Source of the DNA: Pedobacter kyungheensis
GTDB taxonomy: Bacteria; Bacteroidota; Bacteroidia; Sphingobacteriales; Sphingobacteriaceae
Assembly (NCBI RefSeq): GCF_000812965.1
Contig: NZ_JSYN01000010.1
Span: 1-64,000, forward strand
DNA length: 64,000 nucleotides
Reading direction: 5' to 3'
Under the pieces are notes generated by a model, which was not told where the DNA came from, searched no databases, and saw only the letters and a program-made list of their open reading frames with translations. Positions 24,843 through 33,017 of the stretch are shown piece by piece. The position numbers and the translations under genes were made by a program. The stretch's first letter is position 1. Every line of letters starts with the position of its first letter.

Positions 24843-27800
24843 CTAAACCTCCTCATTCGCCTCTACCCTTGGCGGCATTAATTTATAAACCACAGGCGTT
24901 ACAATCCGCGATAGTAAGGTAGAACTGATTAAACCACCAATCATTACAATGGCCAGTGGCGAAATAAGCGGGTTACTGGAAAGTGCGATAGGCAACAAAC
25001 CTCCGATAGCTGTAAAGGTAGTTAAGATGATGGGCAGGAACCTGATCTCTCCAGCTTCTTCAATGGCCTGGTTCAAAGGCATTCCTTCGGCGCGTAACTG
25101 GTTGGTAAAATCGACCAGGAGAATGGTGTTTTTTACTTCAATACCCGCCAAAGCCACAATACCAATGGTTGCCACAAACGACAAGGAATTGCCCGTAACC
25201 ATTAGTGCCAGTACAGCCCCTACAATACCCAACGGAATAACAGAAAGTACAATAAGCGTACTTTTAAAAGTTTTAAACTCGAGCACCAGCACGGCAATAA
25301 AAAGGAAAAGCGTTACCAGCAATATGCTACCGAAACCACCAAAAGATTGGTTCCGGCTTTCTATTTCGCCACCCATCTCAAAAGTATAACCTTCAGGGAG
25401 TTTCAGCTTTTTCATCTGCGCCTCTACATCCTGAATTACTTTATCATTTAAAAAGCCTTTCTGCACAAAAGCATTTACCGAAATGGTACGGGTTTTATTG
25501 TAATGGTTAATGCTTAAAGGCGAAGTTTCGAGCTTTAACGAAGCCACCTGCAATAACGGAATGGATGTGCCCTGGTTGTTATTGATATACAGGTTATTGA
25601 AAACAGTTAAATCAGGGTATGATGGACGATTGGTGGTAAGCAGGATATTGTAATCGTCGCCGTTAGATTTAGGATTGATAAATTTACCTACTTCCAAACC
25701 GGCTACTGCCATCCGAACGGTACGGTCGATATTAACGGTAGGAATGCCCAGTGCCTGTGCCTTATCTTTATTGATATCGACTTTAATATCCGATTTTAAA
25801 TTTTTAAGCGGATTATTTACATAAATCGTTCCGGCAGTTTTAAGCAACATATTTTCTACCCGGCCGCCAAGGCTTCTTAAAGTATCTAAATTATCGCCCA
25901 GCAAACGTACTTCAACTGGCGAAATAATGGGCTGTCCCTGCTCAAAATCTTTAACTTCTACTTTTGCACCCGGGTAAGGCGTCCATTTTTTGCGTAGCAT
26001 TTCGATTATCTCAATTTTACGGTCTGATTTAATGTCGGGTTGCAGCAGCACAAAAAGTTCGGCAAAGTCTGTCCTTTCATTCTGAGGCAATACGTTATAA
26101 TAAATCCGTGGATTACCTTTCCCCACATTAGACGCAAAATACCTGACTTCAGGAATCTTTTTCAATTCCTTTTCAATGGCTTTGGTAACCGAATCGGTAT
26201 AATTCAGGTTCGATTGCAAAGGAGTAGAAATATTGATCAAAAACTGTGGTTTTTCTGATGCCGGAAATAAGCTGAAACCAATAACGGGGATAAGCATAAT
26301 AGAACCTGCAAAAATGGCTACCGCAATTACAATGGTTAAAACAGGTTTAGCAAGTGCCTTATCGAGCAATTTGGAATAAGAGCCGTGGATGATTTTCTGT
26401 AAAGTGCGCAGAAAAATATTGCCATTGGCATCGGCATGAGGTTTTAACAGTTTGCTCGATAAAAAAGGTACCACGGTTAGAGCTACCAGCATAGAAGCAA
26501 TAACCGAGCAGATTACGGCAACAGGTAAACTCCTGATAAATTCGCCCGAAGCTTCGGGTAAAAACATCAAAGGCATAAAAGCGATAATGAGCGTGGCGGT
26601 ACACCCCATTACGGCCATACCAATCTGTTTGGTGGCTTTCAGCGTAGCATCCAGCCGGCTATGCCCGTCGCGCATCCAGCGTTCGATATTTTCGACCACC
26701 ACAATACTATCATCAACGAGCAAACCCAACGATACCACCAGACCAACAATGCTCAACTGGTTTAAACTAAACCCTAAAACACTCAACAAAACCACACCGA
26801 TGGCTAAAGAAAGCGGAATAGAAACCATTACCACAATCGAAGCTCTGGTACCCAAAGGTAAAAGTGTAACCAAAACCAATAAAATGGCAATCATAAAATC
26901 GGTACCTAAACCACCCAAACGGCTGTTTACATTATCAGCCTGATCGAACATTAACTGCTGATCGATATTGGTGGGCAAAGTTTTCCTGAATTTCTCAATT
27001 ACCGGCAAATAGGCTTTTTGGGCCGCGGTAATGTTTCCGCCAGATTTTTGTGCAGCTACCACAAAAACACAACGATGTCCGTTTAAGCGGGTAATGTCTT
27101 TTTCCTGCGAATAATCGAAATACACATTGGCTACATCTTTTAAAGCCGTGTTTTTACCGTTGCCACTAAAAACAATGGTATTTTTAATTTCATCAATATT
27201 TTGGTAATTACCGCTGGTTTTAATGTTGAACGATTTGTTTCCAGCATTTACACTTCCACCGGGGATATTGGCCACTTCACTCTGAATGGCACTGGCAATA
27301 AAAGTAACCGGAATGTGCAACTGCGCCAGTTTTTCGAGGTTTAAATCTACCCGAACCAACTGATCTGGCAAACCCATAATTTCTACATTTTTCAAGAACG
27401 GGATTTTCTCGAGCTCCGACTGCAAATCTTCGGCTTTTGCTTTCAGTTTATCGCGCGAGGCATTTTCAGATACCAGAGCAATCTGTAATACATTTACATC
27501 AGAAGGTGAAACTTTTTGCACTTCCATGCTGTAAATTTCCTGAGGAAGATTAGCACGCTCGCTGTTTACCTCACGTACCAGTTCCTGATATTTATCGTCG
27601 ACATTTACAGCATATTTATACTCTACAAAAAGTACAGCCAAGCCGTCGCGGATAGTAGTTTTAATGTTCTTGATATCATCCAGCCCGTAAATGGTTTTCT
27701 CTAACGGCTTTACCACCAGCTCTTCCATATCCTTCGGACTTGCCCCAGGGTACACCACCACCACAGGATAGTTTGGTGCATTCATATCAGGGTCTTCCGA

Positions 27801-27902
27801 CCGGGGCATGTTGAATATAGTGGTAATACCCAGCGCCAACACCATGAGCACCATGATGAGTGTAAACTGGTAATTTTTTACAGCGTATTCTGATATTTTC
27901 AT
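24843..27902 (-). CDS. RND efflux transporter permease
   Basis: 1019 aa, full length for an AcrB/MexF-type (HAE1) inner membrane pump. Layout: TM1 at about 10-30, periplasmic loop, TM2-6 with ETLLPL/GTRASIVVMVSIPLSLAIG and the LVDDSIVVVENIERWM segment carrying the TM4 acidic pair, second large loop, then TM7-12 (IPLGIVGAVLALMVTG, ALAGIEVKNTILLVDF). Proton motive force drives drug or lipid export through the adaptor and TolC partner encoded just upstream. Last gene of a tetR-tolC-adaptor-permease operon. Confidence 0.95.
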   Translation of the reverse strand: MKISEYAVKNYQFTLIMVLMVLALGITTIFNMPRSEDPDMNAPNYPVVVVYPGASPKDMEELVVKPLEKTIYGLDDIKNIKTTIRDGLAVLFVEYKYAVNVDDKYQELVREVNSERANLPQEIYSMEVQKVSPSDVNVLQIALVSENASRDKLKAKAEDLQSELEKIPFLKNVEIMGLPDQLVRVDLNLEKLAQLHIPVTFIASAIQSEVANIPGGSVNAGNKSFNIKTSGNYQNIDEIKNTIVFSGNGKNTALKDVANVYFDYSQEKDITRLNGHRCVFVVAAQKSGGNITAAQKAYLPVIEKFRKTLPTNIDQQLMFDQADNVNSRLGGLGTDFMIAILLVLVTLLPLGTRASIVVMVSIPLSLAIGVVLLSVLGFSLNQLSIVGLVVSLGLLVDDSIVVVENIERWMRDGHSRLDATLKATKQIGMAVMGCTATLIIAFMPLMFLPEASGEFIRSLPVAVICSVIASMLVALTVVPFLSSKLLKPHADANGNIFLRTLQKIIHGSYSKLLDKALAKPVLTIVIAVAIFAGSIMLIPVIGFSLFPASEKPQFLINISTPLQSNLNYTDSVTKAIEKELKKIPEVRYFASNVGKGNPRIYYNVLPQNERTDFAELFVLLQPDIKSDRKIEIIEMLRKKWTPYPGAKVEVKDFEQGQPIISPVEVRLLGDNLDTLRSLGGRVENMLLKTAGTIYVNNPLKNLKSDIKVDINKDKAQALGIPTVNIDRTVRMAVAGLEVGKFINPKSNGDDYNILLTTNRPSYPDLTVFNNLYINNNQGTSIPLLQVASLKLETSPLSINHYNKTRTISVNAFVQKGFLNDKVIQDVEAQMKKLKLPEGYTFEMGGEIESRNQSFGGFGSILLVTLFLFIAVLVLEFKTFKSTLIVLSVIPLGIVGAVLALMVTGNSLSFVATIGIVALAGIEVKNTILLVDFTNQLRAEGMPLNQAIEEAGEIRFLPIILTTFTAIGGLLPIALSSNPLISPLAIVMIGGLISSTLLSRIVTPVVYKLMPPRVEANEEV

Positions 27903-28018: not shown

Positions 28019-29071
28019 TTATTTTACCACCTTAATCTTCGAGCCATCGGTTAAATAAGCACTGCCCGAAACAATTAAGCCCGCTGCATTTTCTAAACCT
28101 CCGGTAATACTGATTTTATTGTTCTGGATAGCCCCTAACTGAACCTTTACTTTTTGGGCCGTTTTGTTATCGTTGGTAATAAAAACATAACCTTCATTTT
28201 CGCCACCATCTAAAAGGGCATCGTAAGGGATAGTATAACCGTTGCTGGTTTTACTTGGTATAATGGTAGCCTTACCGAACAAACCTGCGGCAAGCCCCTG
28301 AATTTTTGCATCGCTTAAACTCAGCTCTACGCCAAAAGTTCCGCTTTGTGGGTCAATACCTTCGGCTTTACGACTTACTTTTGCACTTAGTGTCTGGTTA
28401 GGCAAAGCATCGGTCGTAATGATGGCATCATCGCCTGTTTTTAAAGCTGCCCACTGCACATCGCTTAAACCAACTTTTAAAATCCACTTGCTTTGTTTTG
28501 CACCGTTTATCTGCAAAACCGGGGTTCCCGGTCCTACAACCTGTCCATCATTAGCCAGTTTTTTAAGCACATAACCACTGCTGGTAGCCCTGATTTCGGA
28601 ATAGTTCTGATTAAATTTTACGGCATCCAGTTGTTGTTTAGCTACCTGTAGCGCAGTTTTGGCATTTTGCATTTGCTCTAAAGTGGCTACACTATCTTTA
28701 TACAATTTGCTTGCACGGCTGTAATCGCGTTCGGCTTTTTGGTAAGCCAGGTTAACCTGCTGCACCTGTGCCGAAATTTCCGTCTGGTTTACTGTTGCCA
28801 GCAACTGCCCCTGATGCACTGCATCGCCTTCTTTTACCAGAATCCGGTTAATGATGCCTCCGTTTTTAAATGACAGGAAAGTTTCATCGTTGGTGGTAAA
28901 TTGCCCCGAGGCCGCAATGGCATGACTGGCATCTTCTACCTGAAGCGGCATAACTTTTACAGGAACAGTATCCTGATTACCAATACCGGCAGTATCGGTT
29001 TTATGGTTGCCGCAGGCACTTATGGTGAAAACCGCAGCAAGCAGGGCTGAGTAAATAAATATCTTCTTCAT
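28019..29071 (-). CDS. RND efflux periplasmic adaptor (membrane fusion lipoprotein)
   Basis: 350 aa. Signal peptide ends in a lipobox with C20 (TISAC), so it is anchored to the inner membrane by lipid. Barrel-sandwich/lipoyl half-motifs (NRILVKEGDAVHQGQLLATV, then IRATSSGYVLKKLANDGQVV in two pieces), a coiled-coil hairpin at about 95-155 and a beta-barrel domain match HlyD/AcrA-type adaptors. Bridges the permease and TolC partners. Four bp from the tolC stop. Confidence 0.93.
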   Translation of the reverse strand: MKKIFIYSALLAAVFTISACGNHKTDTAGIGNQDTVPVKVMPLQVEDASHAIAASGQFTTNDETFLSFKNGGIINRILVKEGDAVHQGQLLATVNQTEISAQVQQVNLAYQKAERDYSRASKLYKDSVATLEQMQNAKTALQVAKQQLDAVKFNQNYSEIRATSSGYVLKKLANDGQVVGPGTPVLQINGAKQSKWILKVGLSDVQWAALKTGDDAIITTDALPNQTLSAKVSRKAEGIDPQSGTFGVELSLSDAKIQGLAAGLFGKATIIPSKTSNGYTIPYDALLDGGENEGYVFITNDNKTAQKVKVQLGAIQNNKISITGGLENAAGLIVSGSAYLTDGSKIKVVK

Positions 29072-29075
29072 AAAA

Positions 29076-30437
29076 TTAATTTATTGAATAGGTTGCGGTT
29101 TCGCGTTCCACATCGGCCATGGCCGACAAAACTTTATACCGGTTTATATTAACTAATAATTGGGCCGCTGTGTATTGGTTACGGGCATCGATGGTTTCGA
29201 TAAACGAATTGGTACCCGCTTTATATCCTTTTTCAATGAGGCGCTGATAACTGGAAGCCGCTTCGAACTGTTTGAGCGAAGACTGATAGGTTTGATAGGC
29301 TGCTTTTAAATTATTTTGTGCTGTTTTAGCCGCAAGATTTAGCTGTTGTGCAACTAAACTGGCATTTAACTCGGCATTTTTAAGATCGAGATTGCTTTGC
29401 CTGATTTTAAAATTATTGCGGTTTCCGGTAAAAATCGGAATATCAAGCTGCAAGCCAATCATATAATAACGGGTATTATCGTTAAAATGAAAACCTTCCG
29501 ATTGTGAACCCAAATCAACAAAACCACCCAATTTCGGTACTGCAAACTGCCGGTTCATTTTAAGCGCTGTTTTGTTGATGCTGATGAGCTGATCTAAAGC
29601 CTTTAATTCTTCTCTTCCACCGGTTACCGATAAATCGGCAATGAGTGCTGTGGCTTTGTTCAAATCTGCCTGGTTATCAAAATTTGCATCAATCTTTTCG
29701 TTGGCTTCGCGGTTTAAGAGGAAATTAAAATACATGCGGGCATTGATTACCTGCTGCTCGGCCGAAACCAGTTGGGCATTTACATTTTCTACTTCGCTTT
29801 TTGAACGCAAAACATAGGCCGGTAAACCCTTCCCGCCATCGAGTAATTTTTCGTTTACCCGCAACCCTTCGTTGGCCAGTTGTAAACCCGATTTATAAAT
29901 ATCAACCGCTTGCAGGGCATTCTGATAATTGTAGTAGGCCGTTTTAATGCTGCGTACCAAATCGCGTTTATAAATCTGCACTTCAAATTCCTGCAAGCTC
30001 ACTTGCTGTTCTGAAATTTGTTTATTATAACCCAAATCAGTATTAATAATAGGCACGGTTGTGCGCACTTTGGCATCATAATAATTCTTGGGTAAGAAGT
30101 TGATGCTCTGGTTTTCCAATAGCCGAAAATTATTTGTTTTGGTTAATTGATTCAGCGTAGTATAAACGGGATTTAACAAATCGCCCAATGGCAAGGGGAT
30201 GTTACGACCACCATCAGCGGTAGACCATGTGGTAGAAAAAGCAACAGTTGGCAGATATAAACTCCTGGCTGTTTTTAACGCCAGCTGGGCCTTATCCAGC
30301 GAAATGTTTTTCTGCTGTAAAACAATGTTGCTCTTAAAAGCTTCGGCAACATAACCATCCAGCAACTGCTGTGCATTAGCCTTCGAAACCCAAACTATAA
30401 CCGAGAAAAGCAGCAAACTAAATAACTTCGTTCTCAT
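29076..30437 (-). CDS. TolC family outer membrane efflux protein
   Basis: 453 aa. Signal peptide 1-22 (ends SKANAQ). Two repeats of long amphipathic helices (about 60-240 and 270-450) with the family pattern of Ala/Leu/Gln heptads; the barrel strands are in DGGRNIPLPLGDLLNP and RYYMIGLQLDIPIFTG. Forms the outer membrane exit duct for the RND pump. The 15-bp TetR operator sits 1 bp upstream of the start codon and 8 bp after tetR stop. Confidence 0.94.
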   Translation of the reverse strand: MRTKLFSLLLFSVIVWVSKANAQQLLDGYVAEAFKSNIVLQQKNISLDKAQLALKTARSLYLPTVAFSTTWSTADGGRNIPLPLGDLLNPVYTTLNQLTKTNNFRLLENQSINFLPKNYYDAKVRTTVPIINTDLGYNKQISEQQVSLQEFEVQIYKRDLVRSIKTAYYNYQNALQAVDIYKSGLQLANEGLRVNEKLLDGGKGLPAYVLRSKSEVENVNAQLVSAEQQVINARMYFNFLLNREANEKIDANFDNQADLNKATALIADLSVTGGREELKALDQLISINKTALKMNRQFAVPKLGGFVDLGSQSEGFHFNDNTRYYMIGLQLDIPIFTGNRNNFKIRQSNLDLKNAELNASLVAQQLNLAAKTAQNNLKAAYQTYQSSLKQFEAASSYQRLIEKGYKAGTNSFIETIDARNQYTAAQLLVNINRYKVLSAMADVERETATYSIN

Positions 30438-30438
30438 A

Positions 30439-30453
30439 ATTAACAGTGTTAAT
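30439..30453. promoter_or_regulatory. TetR operator, copy 2 (between tetR and tolC)
   Basis: ATTAACAGTGTTAAT, a perfect 7-bp-arm palindrome around one base, identical apart from the centre to the site at 31125-31139. The flanks match too (CATA before the 31125 site, CATA before this one). It lies directly before the tolC start codon. Confidence 0.75.
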
Positions 30454-30459
30454 TTAATG

Positions 30460-31098
30460 TTATTTTAAACTATTCAACATGGCGATAAAGCCATCAAAAG
30501 TTTTCTCCAGCCAGTCACCCTCCTCCAGGATGTGTGCTTTAGTTGTAGCCATGTGATCGAGGTGACCCTGCAACTTTAAACTGCACAAACCATGCATTAA
30601 TGACCATACATTAAGCGCAAAAGTGGTGGTATCGAAACTGGTAAAGTAACCGGCATCCTTGCATTGATCAACCGTCATAATTAAAGCGGTAAAGGCTTGT
30701 TCCCCCTCTTCCCATTCTTCGTCATGGCAGTGCGCCTTAACAAATTCGATGGGTTCTTTCATGATAAACATGAGTTCGTAAAAGTCGGGATTGTTTAGCG
30801 CAAAGCTCATATAAACACGACCCATGGCCTTTAAACGCTCAAAAGGCTCACTTACATGCTGCAAAACGCCAAACTGCGAACCCAATAATTTAAAGCCTTC
30901 CTGGTGCAGGGCATACATGATATCGGCCTTGTCTTTATAGTACAGGTAAATGGTAGTCGGGCTGAATTCTATTTTCTCCGCAATCTTCCTGATTGAGGTG
31001 GCCTCGTAGCCATCCTTTAAAAAAAGTTCCTTCGCCGCATCCAAAATCCGCTGACGTAAATCTTCCTTGTGCTTCTCTTTACGCTCTTTTATTCCCAT
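30460..31098 (-). CDS. TetR/AcrR family transcriptional repressor
   Basis: 212 aa from the ATG at 31098; an upstream in-frame TTG (31119) would place the start inside the promoter -7 box and is less likely. HTH at about 22-66 after a basic arm: LRQRILDAAKELFLKDGYEATSIRKIAEKIEFSPTTIYLYYKDKA (read in pieces), a strong match. The C-terminal helical bundle is the ligand site. First gene of the efflux operon; represses it, and itself, through the palindromes at 31125 and 30439. Bound drug or lipid would release it. Confidence 0.93.
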   Translation of the reverse strand: MGIKERKEKHKEDLRQRILDAAKELFLKDGYEATSIRKIAEKIEFSPTTIYLYYKDKADIMYALHQEGFKLLGSQFGVLQHVSEPFERLKAMGRVYMSFALNNPDFYELMFIMKEPIEFVKAHCHDEEWEEGEQAFTALIMTVDQCKDAGYFTSFDTTTFALNVWSLMHGLCSLKLQGHLDHMATTKAHILEEGDWLEKTFDGFIAMLNSLK

Positions 31099-31116
31099 GA
31101 TAAAACAATTACAGTG

Positions 31117-31124
31117 CAAACATA
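31117..31124 (-). promoter_or_regulatory. -7 box of the tetR-efflux operon promoter
   Basis: CAAACATA on the plus strand, TATGTTTG on the minus strand, an exact TAnnTTTG match 18 nt upstream of the tetR ATG. It abuts the operator at 31125-31139, so bound TetR would cover the spacer. No good -33 box. Confidence 0.55.
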
Positions 31125-31139
31125 ATTAACACTGTTAAT
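31125..31139. promoter_or_regulatory. TetR operator, copy 1 (tetR promoter)
   Basis: ATTAACACTGTTAAT, palindrome with arms ATTAACA/TGTTAAT around a central base. Exactly the reverse complement of the site at 30439-30453. Position beside the -7 box supports autorepression. Confidence 0.8.
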
Positions 31140-31352
31140 AAAATGAAATTATTTAAGAATTATTTTTATTTAAGAAAGAGTCCGTTGAAATATTTAAGCC
31201 ATCAAATACTGAATCCGACACACGATTACACCATTAACTAAATCTTAACCAAAACTCTTATGAAATTAACCCGCTCATAATCCACCTCCTCTACTCAAAC
31301 GTTTGCCCTATTTTCTTTACAGAATAATGGAATGGCCTATGTTAAAAAGCAG

Positions 31353-31360
31353 TATCTTTG
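31353..31360 (+). promoter_or_regulatory. -7 box (TATCTTTG) for pruA
   Basis: Exact TAnnTTTG match 22 nt before the ATG at 31383. Its position inside a longer open frame is part of the reason for choosing the later start. Confidence 0.5.
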
Positions 31361-31382
31361 CCCAACTCATAAAAAATACACT

Positions 31383-33017
31383 ATGCTTAAAGGATTTTTT
31401 AACGTACCTACCCCGGTAAACGAACCCATTTTAAACTACGGACCAGGCAGTAAAGAGCGTGCTCTTTTAAAAGAAGCATTGGCCGAAGCCCGCGCACACC
31501 AGCAAGACATTCCGATGTATATTGGTGGTAAGCAGGTTCATACTACCAAAAAAGGTAAAGTTGTTCCACCTCACGATCATCAACATATTTTAGCCCAATA
31601 CAGCATTGGCGATAAAGCGCACATTGCACAAGCTATCGATGCGGCTTTAGCTGCAAAACAAGACTGGGAAAACCTGGCCTGGGAGCACAGAGCTGCAATC
31701 TTTTTAAAAGCTGCCGATTTAATTGCCGGTAAATACCGTTATAAATTAAATGCAGCAACTATGCTTGGCCAAAGCAAAAATGCTTATCAGGCAGAAATTG
31801 ATGCCGCTTGCGAGCTGATTGATTTCTTACGTTTTAACGTAAGCTACATGGCCGATATTTACAAGCAACAACCTCCGGTTTCGCCACGCGGAAGCTGGAA
31901 CCGTGTTGAACAACGCCCTTTAGAAGGTTTCGTATTTGCCCTTACCCCTTTCAACTTTACTGCAATTGCAGCTAATTTACCTGCGTCTGCAGCCATGATG
32001 GGTAACGTAGTGGTATGGAAACCTGCCGATACACAAGTATATGCAGCCAACCTGTTAATGGAAATTTTCCGCGAAGCAGGCTTACCTGATGGTGTTGTAA
32101 ATTTGGTTTATGCCGACGGACCAGAAACCGGTGATGTAATTTTTAACCACCCTGATTTTGCAGGTATTCACTTTACAGGTTCTACCAAAGTATTTCAGGA
32201 AATCTGGAAAACCATTGGTACCAACATTCATAAATACAGATCGTACCCACGCATTGTAGGCGAAACAGGTGGTAAAGATTTTATCCTGGTTCACCCATCA
32301 GCACAAACTAAAGTGGCCAGCACGGCTATTGTACGTGGTGCTTTTGAATACCAGGGACAAAAATGCTCGGCAGCTAGTCGTGTTTATATTGCAAAAAGCC
32401 TTTGGCCTGAAATTAAAGAACAAATGTTAGCTGACTTAGCTACCTTTAAAATGGGTGGTACCGAAGATTTCACCAACTTTATTAATGCGGTAATTGATGA
32501 ACGCTCTTTTGATAAATTAGCCAAATACATCGATCAGGCTAAAAAAGATAAAGGTGTCGAAATTATTGCCGGTGGTAACTACGATAAGAGCAAAGGTTAT
32601 TTTGTTGAGCCAACTATCCTTGTGGTTGAAGATCCAAAATATACCACCATGTGCGAAGAGTTGTTTGGCCCGGTATTAACGGTTTATGTTTATGCCGATC
32701 AGGATTTCGACTCGATTTTAGAGGTAATTGATACCACTTCTCCATACGCTTTAACAGGTGCCTTAATTGCGCAAGACCGTTATGCGATTGATAAAGCAAG
32801 CCATGCATTACGCAACTCAGCTGGTAACTTCTACATTAACGATAAATGCACTGGTGCAGTAGTTGGTCAGCAGCCTTTTGGTGGAGCCAGAGGTTCGGGT
32901 ACTAACGATAAAGCAGGATCGATGATCAATTTATTACGTTGGGTTTCTCCACGTACCATTAAAGAGGTTTTCGAATCGCCAACTGATTACCGTTATCCAT
33001 TCTTAGCTGAAGATTAA
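31383..33017 (+). CDS. pruA: L-glutamate gamma-semialdehyde (P5C) dehydrogenase
   Basis: 544 aa from the ATG at 31383 (MLKGFFNVPTPVNEPIL, the usual start). Oxidises glutamate semialdehyde to glutamate with NAD+, second step of proline breakdown. It is the stand-alone mitochondrial-like type (ALDH4), not a PutA fusion. Signatures: ALTPFNFTAIAANLPA, VVWKPADTQVYAA, ITFTGSTKVF-like block, VGETGGKD with the general-base Glu, EYQGQKCSAASR with the nucleophile Cys, and CEELFGPVLTVYVY. Followed by a terminator. No proline dehydrogenase gene is nearby. Confidence 0.96.
   Translation: MLKGFFNVPTPVNEPILNYGPGSKERALLKEALAEARAHQQDIPMYIGGKQVHTTKKGKVVPPHDHQHILAQYSIGDKAHIAQAIDAALAAKQDWENLAWEHRAAIFLKAADLIAGKYRYKLNAATMLGQSKNAYQAEIDAACELIDFLRFNVSYMADIYKQQPPVSPRGSWNRVEQRPLEGFVFALTPFNFTAIAANLPASAAMMGNVVVWKPADTQVYAANLLMEIFREAGLPDGVVNLVYADGPETGDVIFNHPDFAGIHFTGSTKVFQEIWKTIGTNIHKYRSYPRIVGETGGKDFILVHPSAQTKVASTAIVRGAFEYQGQKCSAASRVYIAKSLWPEIKEQMLADLATFKMGGTEDFTNFINAVIDERSFDKLAKYIDQAKKDKGVEIIAGGNYDKSKGYFVEPTILVVEDPKYTTMCEELFGPVLTVYVYADQDFDSILEVIDTTSPYALTGALIAQDRYAIDKASHALRNSAGNFYINDKCTGAVVGQQPFGGARGSGTNDKAGSMINLLRWVSPRTIKEVFESPTDYRYPFLAED

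Follow-up and report, generated by a model that had tools for sequence, protein, structure and literature searches.

AcrR, MtrR and the Bacteroides regulator BmeR (BmeABC5) are autoregulated TetR-family repressors of RND pumps. In E. coli, a bound repressor can also obstruct elongation, the stalled polymerase being mostly removed by Mfd; such a transcriptional roadblock is described for LacI in this species, CcpA and CodY are named as well, and a strong regulatory range may require multiple roadblocks (PMC4132739). In the phylum of the organism studied here, the operon FJOH_RS06575-06590 of Flavobacterium johnsoniae comprises the same tetR-tolC-adaptor-permease set, a likeness by gene content alone, and deletion of its tolC lowered antibiotic susceptibility (PMC10197871). 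A term search in the accessible portion of that article returned neither 'operator' nor 'palindrom', and no site is described there for the operon.

The locus analysed here lies in a window of 64,000 nucleotides, the whole stretch of Pedobacter kyungheensis DNA under study (contig NZ_JSYN01000010.1). Its minus strand reads, in this order, promoter, tetR, tolC, hlyD and RND permease gene, and the tripartite pump is complete within the tetR operon, with OEP, HlyD/RND_mfp and ACR_tran encoded consecutively (Table 1). As with AcrR, MtrR and BmeR, a TetR-fold regulator stands beside a tripartite RND pump and a palindromic predicted operator covers the regulator promoter. Unlike in these systems, the pump operon begins with the regulator gene, and a second predicted operator separates this gene from those of the pump. 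The NCBIfam models of AcrR and MtrR score this TetR far below their cut-offs (32.4 of 271 and 25.9 of 280, respectively). Divergent from tetR, the plus strand holds a gene at window positions 31332-33017 whose product, judged by eye, is aldehyde dehydrogenase-like.

Table 1. Features of the tetR-pump operon and of the paralogous site pair (window coordinates, except in the last row).
Feature	Position	Strand	Remarks
tetR	30460..31098	-	212 aa; stop 30462-30460; TetR_N + TetR_C_33; recognition helix SPTTIYLYY with Thr48
tolC-like outer membrane efflux protein (OEP) gene, first pump gene	29076..30437	-	ATG 30437-30435
HlyD/RND periplasmic adaptor subunit gene	28019..29071	-	
RND permease gene (ACR_tran)	24843..27902	-	
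O1a, predicted promoter operator ATTAACAGTGTTAAT	31125..31139	-	fills the -33/-7 spacer of the tetR promoter
-7 box TATGTTTG of the tetR promoter	31117..31124	-	abuts O1a; consensus TTTG/TAnnTTTG
-33-like TTTC, weak match to TTTG	31145..31148	-	20 nt upstream of the -7 box
O1b, weaker predicted second operator TTTGCACTGTAAT	31108..31120	-	18 bp downstream of O1a, overlaps the -7 box
O2a, predicted junction operator ATTAACACTGTTAAT	30439..30453	-	between tetR stop and tolC ATG
O2b, weaker predicted second operator AGAACGAAGTTAT	30422..30434	-	18 bp downstream of O2a, in tolC codons 2-6
Paralogue site pair	L048 5336-5432 = G000:C29:22335-22431		one before hlyD, one in the first hlyD codons (peptide FNTVK)

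The palindrome pair and the tetR promoter

An earlier note on this DNA had reported the same palindrome at both ends of tetR, and the sequence confirms it at the coordinates of O1a and O2a. The two plus-strand 15-mers are, as claimed, reverse complements of each other and differ only in their central base, since their arms are palindromic. Equally correct were the statements that the first site abuts the -7 box of the tetR promoter (ATTAACAGTGTTAAT runs directly into TATGTTTG on the minus strand) and that the second, which starts just past the tetR stop, ends one base before the tolC start codon. Single palindromes of this 7-1-7 form are unremarkable, with 4 in the window against a mean of 5.9 in first-order Markov simulations of it. 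Two such palindromes with identical arms less than 1 kb apart, however, occurred in 0 of 60 simulations, so the pair is far from chance.

No other place in the window comes within 2 mismatches of the 15-mer. A search of the whole genome (6,358,642 bases, 67 contigs), which had been named beforehand as a check, found ATTAACANTGTTAAT at just two places, both flanking tetR, with no scatter at unrelated places; the reversed control had zero matches. With no further genome copies, a wider regulon defined by the 15-mer was rejected. A looser 17-mer search (up to 2 mismatches) matched 159 places compared to 105 for its reversed control, a result that we do not take to indicate a regulon. The 13-mer TTAACRSYGTTAA is present in 136 of 145 congeners, by eye little above its reversed control, and is therefore no regulon detector by itself.

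The genome also encodes a paralogous TetR-HlyD-RND operon (on contig C29), which carries two TTAACAGTGTTAA sites 84 bp apart. Among the matches listed, at the top of which exact cores with A/T flanks rank, the 13-bp core TTAACASTGTTAA is found only at the window operon and the C29 operon, flanked by A in the former and by T in the latter. Cross-regulation between the two operons is possible, and the difference in the flanking base may separate the two repressors. In four congeners (L054, L055, L056, L057), the paralogous operon contains one strict site upstream of tetR and a further two or three downstream, spaced 77-89 bp apart, which makes three or four in all.

The promoter consensus of Bacteroidetes is given as TTTG/TAnnTTTG (PMC6847099). 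When the O1 sites of related loci are aligned, a T-rich -33 position is followed by the operator and then by TAtaTTTG, in agreement with this consensus, and TAnnTTTG stands directly after O1 in 52 of 72 orthologous sites. The predicted operator O1 overlaps the promoter of the regulator, and a repressor bound there would close off the promoter that drives its own gene.

Conservation of the sites and the recognition helix

The tetR product matches PF00440 with 50.8 bits (cut-off 24) and PF13305 with 58.1 (cut-off 26.8). Its AlphaFold2 model (pLDDT 87.4) has helices at residues 36-43 and 47-53, and its PDB matches are TetR-type regulators. It is a TetR-family regulator with a TetR_N helix-turn-helix and an all-helical ligand domain.

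Relatives of the locus were picked on TetR protein similarity alone. The genus set consists of 23 Pedobacter loci (L003-L025, the window locus included) with a TetR identity of 58-100%; orthologues in P. ghigonis, P. soli and P. zeae reach 97-100%. O1 of the form TTAACRSYGTTAA is found in all 23, 37-47 bp upstream of the tetR start, and O2 is exact in 22, the exception being L017 with one mismatch (by eye). In the nine loci of the window's subgroup (L003-L011), the tolC ATG lies downstream of O2, in the same frame. In the other fourteen (L012-L025) it lies upstream, so that O2 encodes the first TolC residues, reading ATG TTA ACA and onwards (Met-Leu-Thr-Leu-Leu-Ile and similar), and its bases are unchanged in 13 of these 14. 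Since the bases of O2 are kept whether coding or non-coding, it is the DNA that appears to be under selection.

For a wider survey, the TetR alignment was run against 395 genomes from the class and 250 from the order, plus named genomes. A score gap separates the TetR-TolC orthogroup, at about 170 bits or more, from a paralogous group at about 121 or less. The 161 distinct TetR proteins were reduced to 104 at an 80% identity cut, comprising 85 orthologues and 19 paralogues. The survey covers part of the listed TetR matches, those outside it including G127:C1:4013458, G014, G013, G015:C2, G526:C27 and a dozen or so matches of about 40% identity, and the paralogue set is a sample of 20 regions plus some others.

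We applied a strict pattern to windows of up to 200 nt upstream of tetR for O1 and up to 70 nt after the tetR stop for O2. It matched O1 in 72 and O2 in 67 of the 85 orthologues, both being present in 56, while the reversed pattern matched 2 and 0. In eight control windows of 70 nt, it was found 0 or 1 times each among the 85. The paralogues had O1 in 18 of 19 cases and O2 in 10, leaving nine without O2. For the 68 orthologues with a core O2 that starts at most 70 nt past the stop, which include one late site beyond the window of the 67-count, O2 begins 19-25 nt past the stop in 55 and 6-10 nt past it in nine, the window's group among the latter.

The second base of the half-site varies by locus, being T in one group (TTAAC) and G or A in the other (T[G/A]AAC). 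O1 and O2 agree in this dialect in every one of the 46 orthologues that have both sites clear (28 G/A, 18 T), a count that leaves out ten loci where one site is mixed and 29 that lack a site. Residue 48 of TetR, the second residue of the modelled recognition helix 47-53, follows the same division: it is Thr in 31/31 TTAAC loci and Gly or Ala in 44/44 T[G/A]AAC loci (75/75 in total; the remaining 10 of the 85 comprise 8 with a mixed O2 and 2 without a site). Its mutual information with the half-site base, 0.98 bit, is the highest among positions 34-61. A tree made without the helix columns requires 8 changes of residue 48, and the independent contrasts for residue 48 and operator number 1 on well-supported branches and 5 on all branches of this quick tree. 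Because these contrasts are so few, a sign test gives no significance for the co-variation. The association, which is indirect evidence that the recognition helix sets operator specificity, is perfect yet phylogenetically thin, and residue 48 (Thr versus Gly/Ala) is a possible one-residue specificity switch for the operator base.

Genome uniqueness, conservation and co-variation with the recognition helix strongly support the earlier proposal that both palindromes serve as operators for the TetR they flank. On these three lines of evidence, this TetR very probably binds both sites, and a single autoregulated TetR very likely has O1 and O2 as its operators.

When the flank of each operator was scored for resemblance to that operator, with shuffles that preserve base composition only, +18 bp was the leading offset in five of the six groups of sites. 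It ranked first for orthologous O1-TT (n=38, z 12.9), O2-TT (n=21, z 4.7), O1-TG/TA (n=34, z 6.0) and O2-TG/TA (n=46, z 14.8) and for O2 of the paralogues (n=10, z 10.5), and third for their O1 (n=18, z 5.2). In O1, the -7 box replaces the left half of the second site; in O2, this half reads AaAAC. In the window, both second sites (TTTGCACTGTAAT and AGAACGAAGTTAT) are imperfect. Part of the O2 signal in Thr48 loci may reflect codon choice, since the second site overlaps the first tolC codons there; the start codon of Gly/Ala48 loci and of paralogues mostly lies elsewhere. Extra downstream sites occur in 13 of 46 Gly/Ala48 orthologues (one being the +18 site itself) and in 4 of 19 paralogues, and strict sites 66-135 bp downstream, mostly at 76-88, occur in 12 orthologues and 4 paralogues.

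Thirteen of the 85 orthologues have no strict O1 and 18 no strict O2. The latter is what one might expect if TetR bound both sites but used O2 for fine-tuning or titration, with little effect on pump transcription. The wide retention of O2 at a nearly fixed place past the stop, with a second site at +18, speaks against this idea, which we consider improbable.

Possible roles of the junction site

For the site at the tetR-tolC junction, the earlier note had offered two options, a roadblock or an internal promoter switch. O2 does sit like a promoter operator just upstream of tolC, and TTAATTATG follows both sites in the window sequence, as would suit a separate internal promoter of the pump genes switched directly by TetR. 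However, TAnnTTTG, which so often follows O1, is found at the equivalent place of O2 in 0 of 67 loci, the mirrored antisense box CAAAnnTA is likewise found at O2 in 0 of 67, and within the whole junction (stop -30 to +150) TAnnTTTG is rather depleted, with 4 of 85 where 9.0 were expected. Without this box, O2 is unlikely to hold an ordinary promoter, and we rejected an internal sigma-A promoter, with neither the sense nor the mirrored box present. The switch is thereby disfavoured; as the box is that of sigma-A, there is room for an alternative sigma factor, and we rate an internal promoter of any kind as unlikely rather than negligible.

O2 is an operator-like site inside a transcription unit, downstream of the promoter and without a sigma-A box of its own. 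Sites in a transcribed unit that lack a promoter suggest an obstacle to elongation, which makes the roadblock the better of the two options. Its case rests on exclusion, roadblocking itself being without a sequence signature.

A T-tract of at least 5 lies no more than 45 nt downstream of the tetR stop in 51 of 85 orthologues, compared to 17.4 expected, mostly 16-18 bp upstream of O2 and hairpin-free (for example in junctions L068, L070 and L073). The window locus and 34 of the 85 orthologues have none at the junction. We rejected an intrinsic terminator here: the 35 nt preceding the tract fold at -3.4 kcal/mol, compared to -4.2 for control windows in tetR, and folds at -8 kcal/mol or below precede it in just 3 of 51 cases. 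The tracts could instead belong to a stop programmed by the repressor throughout the class, in which a tandem operator at a set distance past the regulator stop, often with a T-tract 16-18 bp upstream, would halt the polymerase on a weak rU:dA hybrid and end the transcript after tetR. A drug would then convert a regulator-only into a full pump transcript, and the window would represent a variant that lost the T-tract. We put this forward tentatively, as a generalization with perhaps one chance in four of being right.

TetR might also bridge O1 and O2, which would give a DNA loop of roughly 680 bp and strengthen repression of the promoter. The spacing of the sites is fairly constant (640-710 bp in 52 of 56 loci), but it tracks the length of tetR, and helical phasing is absent for periods of 10.0-11.0 (R ≤ 0.20, p ≥ 0.11), for which reason a phased loop was rejected. 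Moreover, TetR dimers usually have one DNA-binding face, so that a loop would need a tetramer. We regard looping as hardly likely.

Finally, the junction palindrome could act at the mRNA level by folding into a hairpin that covers the start of tolC. Among the 28 Thr48 orthologues that have a core O2, the ATG stands exactly 15 nt after the O2 start in 19, which places O2 over the ribosome-binding region. Yet this spacing holds for 1 of 40 Gly/Ala48 orthologues, where O2 is nevertheless kept; the predicted hairpin at the window O2 has just -2.4 kcal/mol; and the inner pair is A/C, unpairable in RNA, in 9 of 77 O2 sites and likewise in 7 of 90 O1 sites (paralogues included). Given its weakness and the A/C pairs that disrupt it in some loci, the RNA hairpin was rejected and is the least probable of the readings considered here.

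Proposed mechanism and comparison with known systems

The best explanation, to which we assign a probability of about 0.62, is that one TetR acts at both sites, repressing its own promoter from O1 and shielding the pump genes by a roadblock at O2. The extra sites downstream of O2 in some loci count in favour of this reading, in view of the multiple roadblocks that a strong regulatory range may require (PMC4132739). Counting against it are the orthologues and paralogues without a strict site, the small number of independent contrasts behind the co-variation, and the lack, in the window locus and 34 of 85 orthologues, of the T-tract that a roadblock might favour. A TetR dimer on O1, bound strongly at O1a in the promoter spacer and more weakly at O1b, would block its own promoter, occupancy of O1b covering the -7 box and the early transcribed region. 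TetR on O2, again with a strong (O2a) and a weaker (O2b) site, would stop those polymerases that slipped past O1 and transcribed tetR. Uninduced cells would hence make some regulator and very little pump, whereas an inducing drug would release O1 and O2 together and allow transcription of the whole tetR-tolC-hlyD-RND operon. The sequences themselves show where the sites lie, that they are unique in the genome and conserved, that they co-vary with the recognition helix, that O2 has no sigma-A -7 box and that second sites recur at +18; from this we infer that TetR binds, that it forms a roadblock at O2 and that an inducer exists.

If this is true, a large group of Bacteroidota controls its drug pumps with one repressor acting twice per transcript, at initiation and at the boundary between regulator and pump, which would keep the pump tightly silent without silencing the regulator. 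The operator motif, together with the possible switch at position 48, would further allow target prediction for many uncharacterised TetR proteins of Bacteroidota and could be used to build switches for these bacteria. Searches of the open PMC literature, outside of which lie most subscription journals and all preprints, found no paper on the double-operator layout, which is weak evidence of novelty.

The proposed role of O2 resembles the roadblocks of LacI, CcpA and CodY in that a repressor site lies within a transcription unit, downstream of the promoter. It differs from them in being proposed from sequence alone, in the same repressor also sitting at the promoter, and in the presence of a second site 18 bp on. 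QacR-type operators hold two dimers, and the loci described here are similar in having more than one predicted dimer site per operator region. In contrast to the QacR type, however, these are two separate palindromes at 18-bp spacing, one of them weak, as far as their sequences tell.
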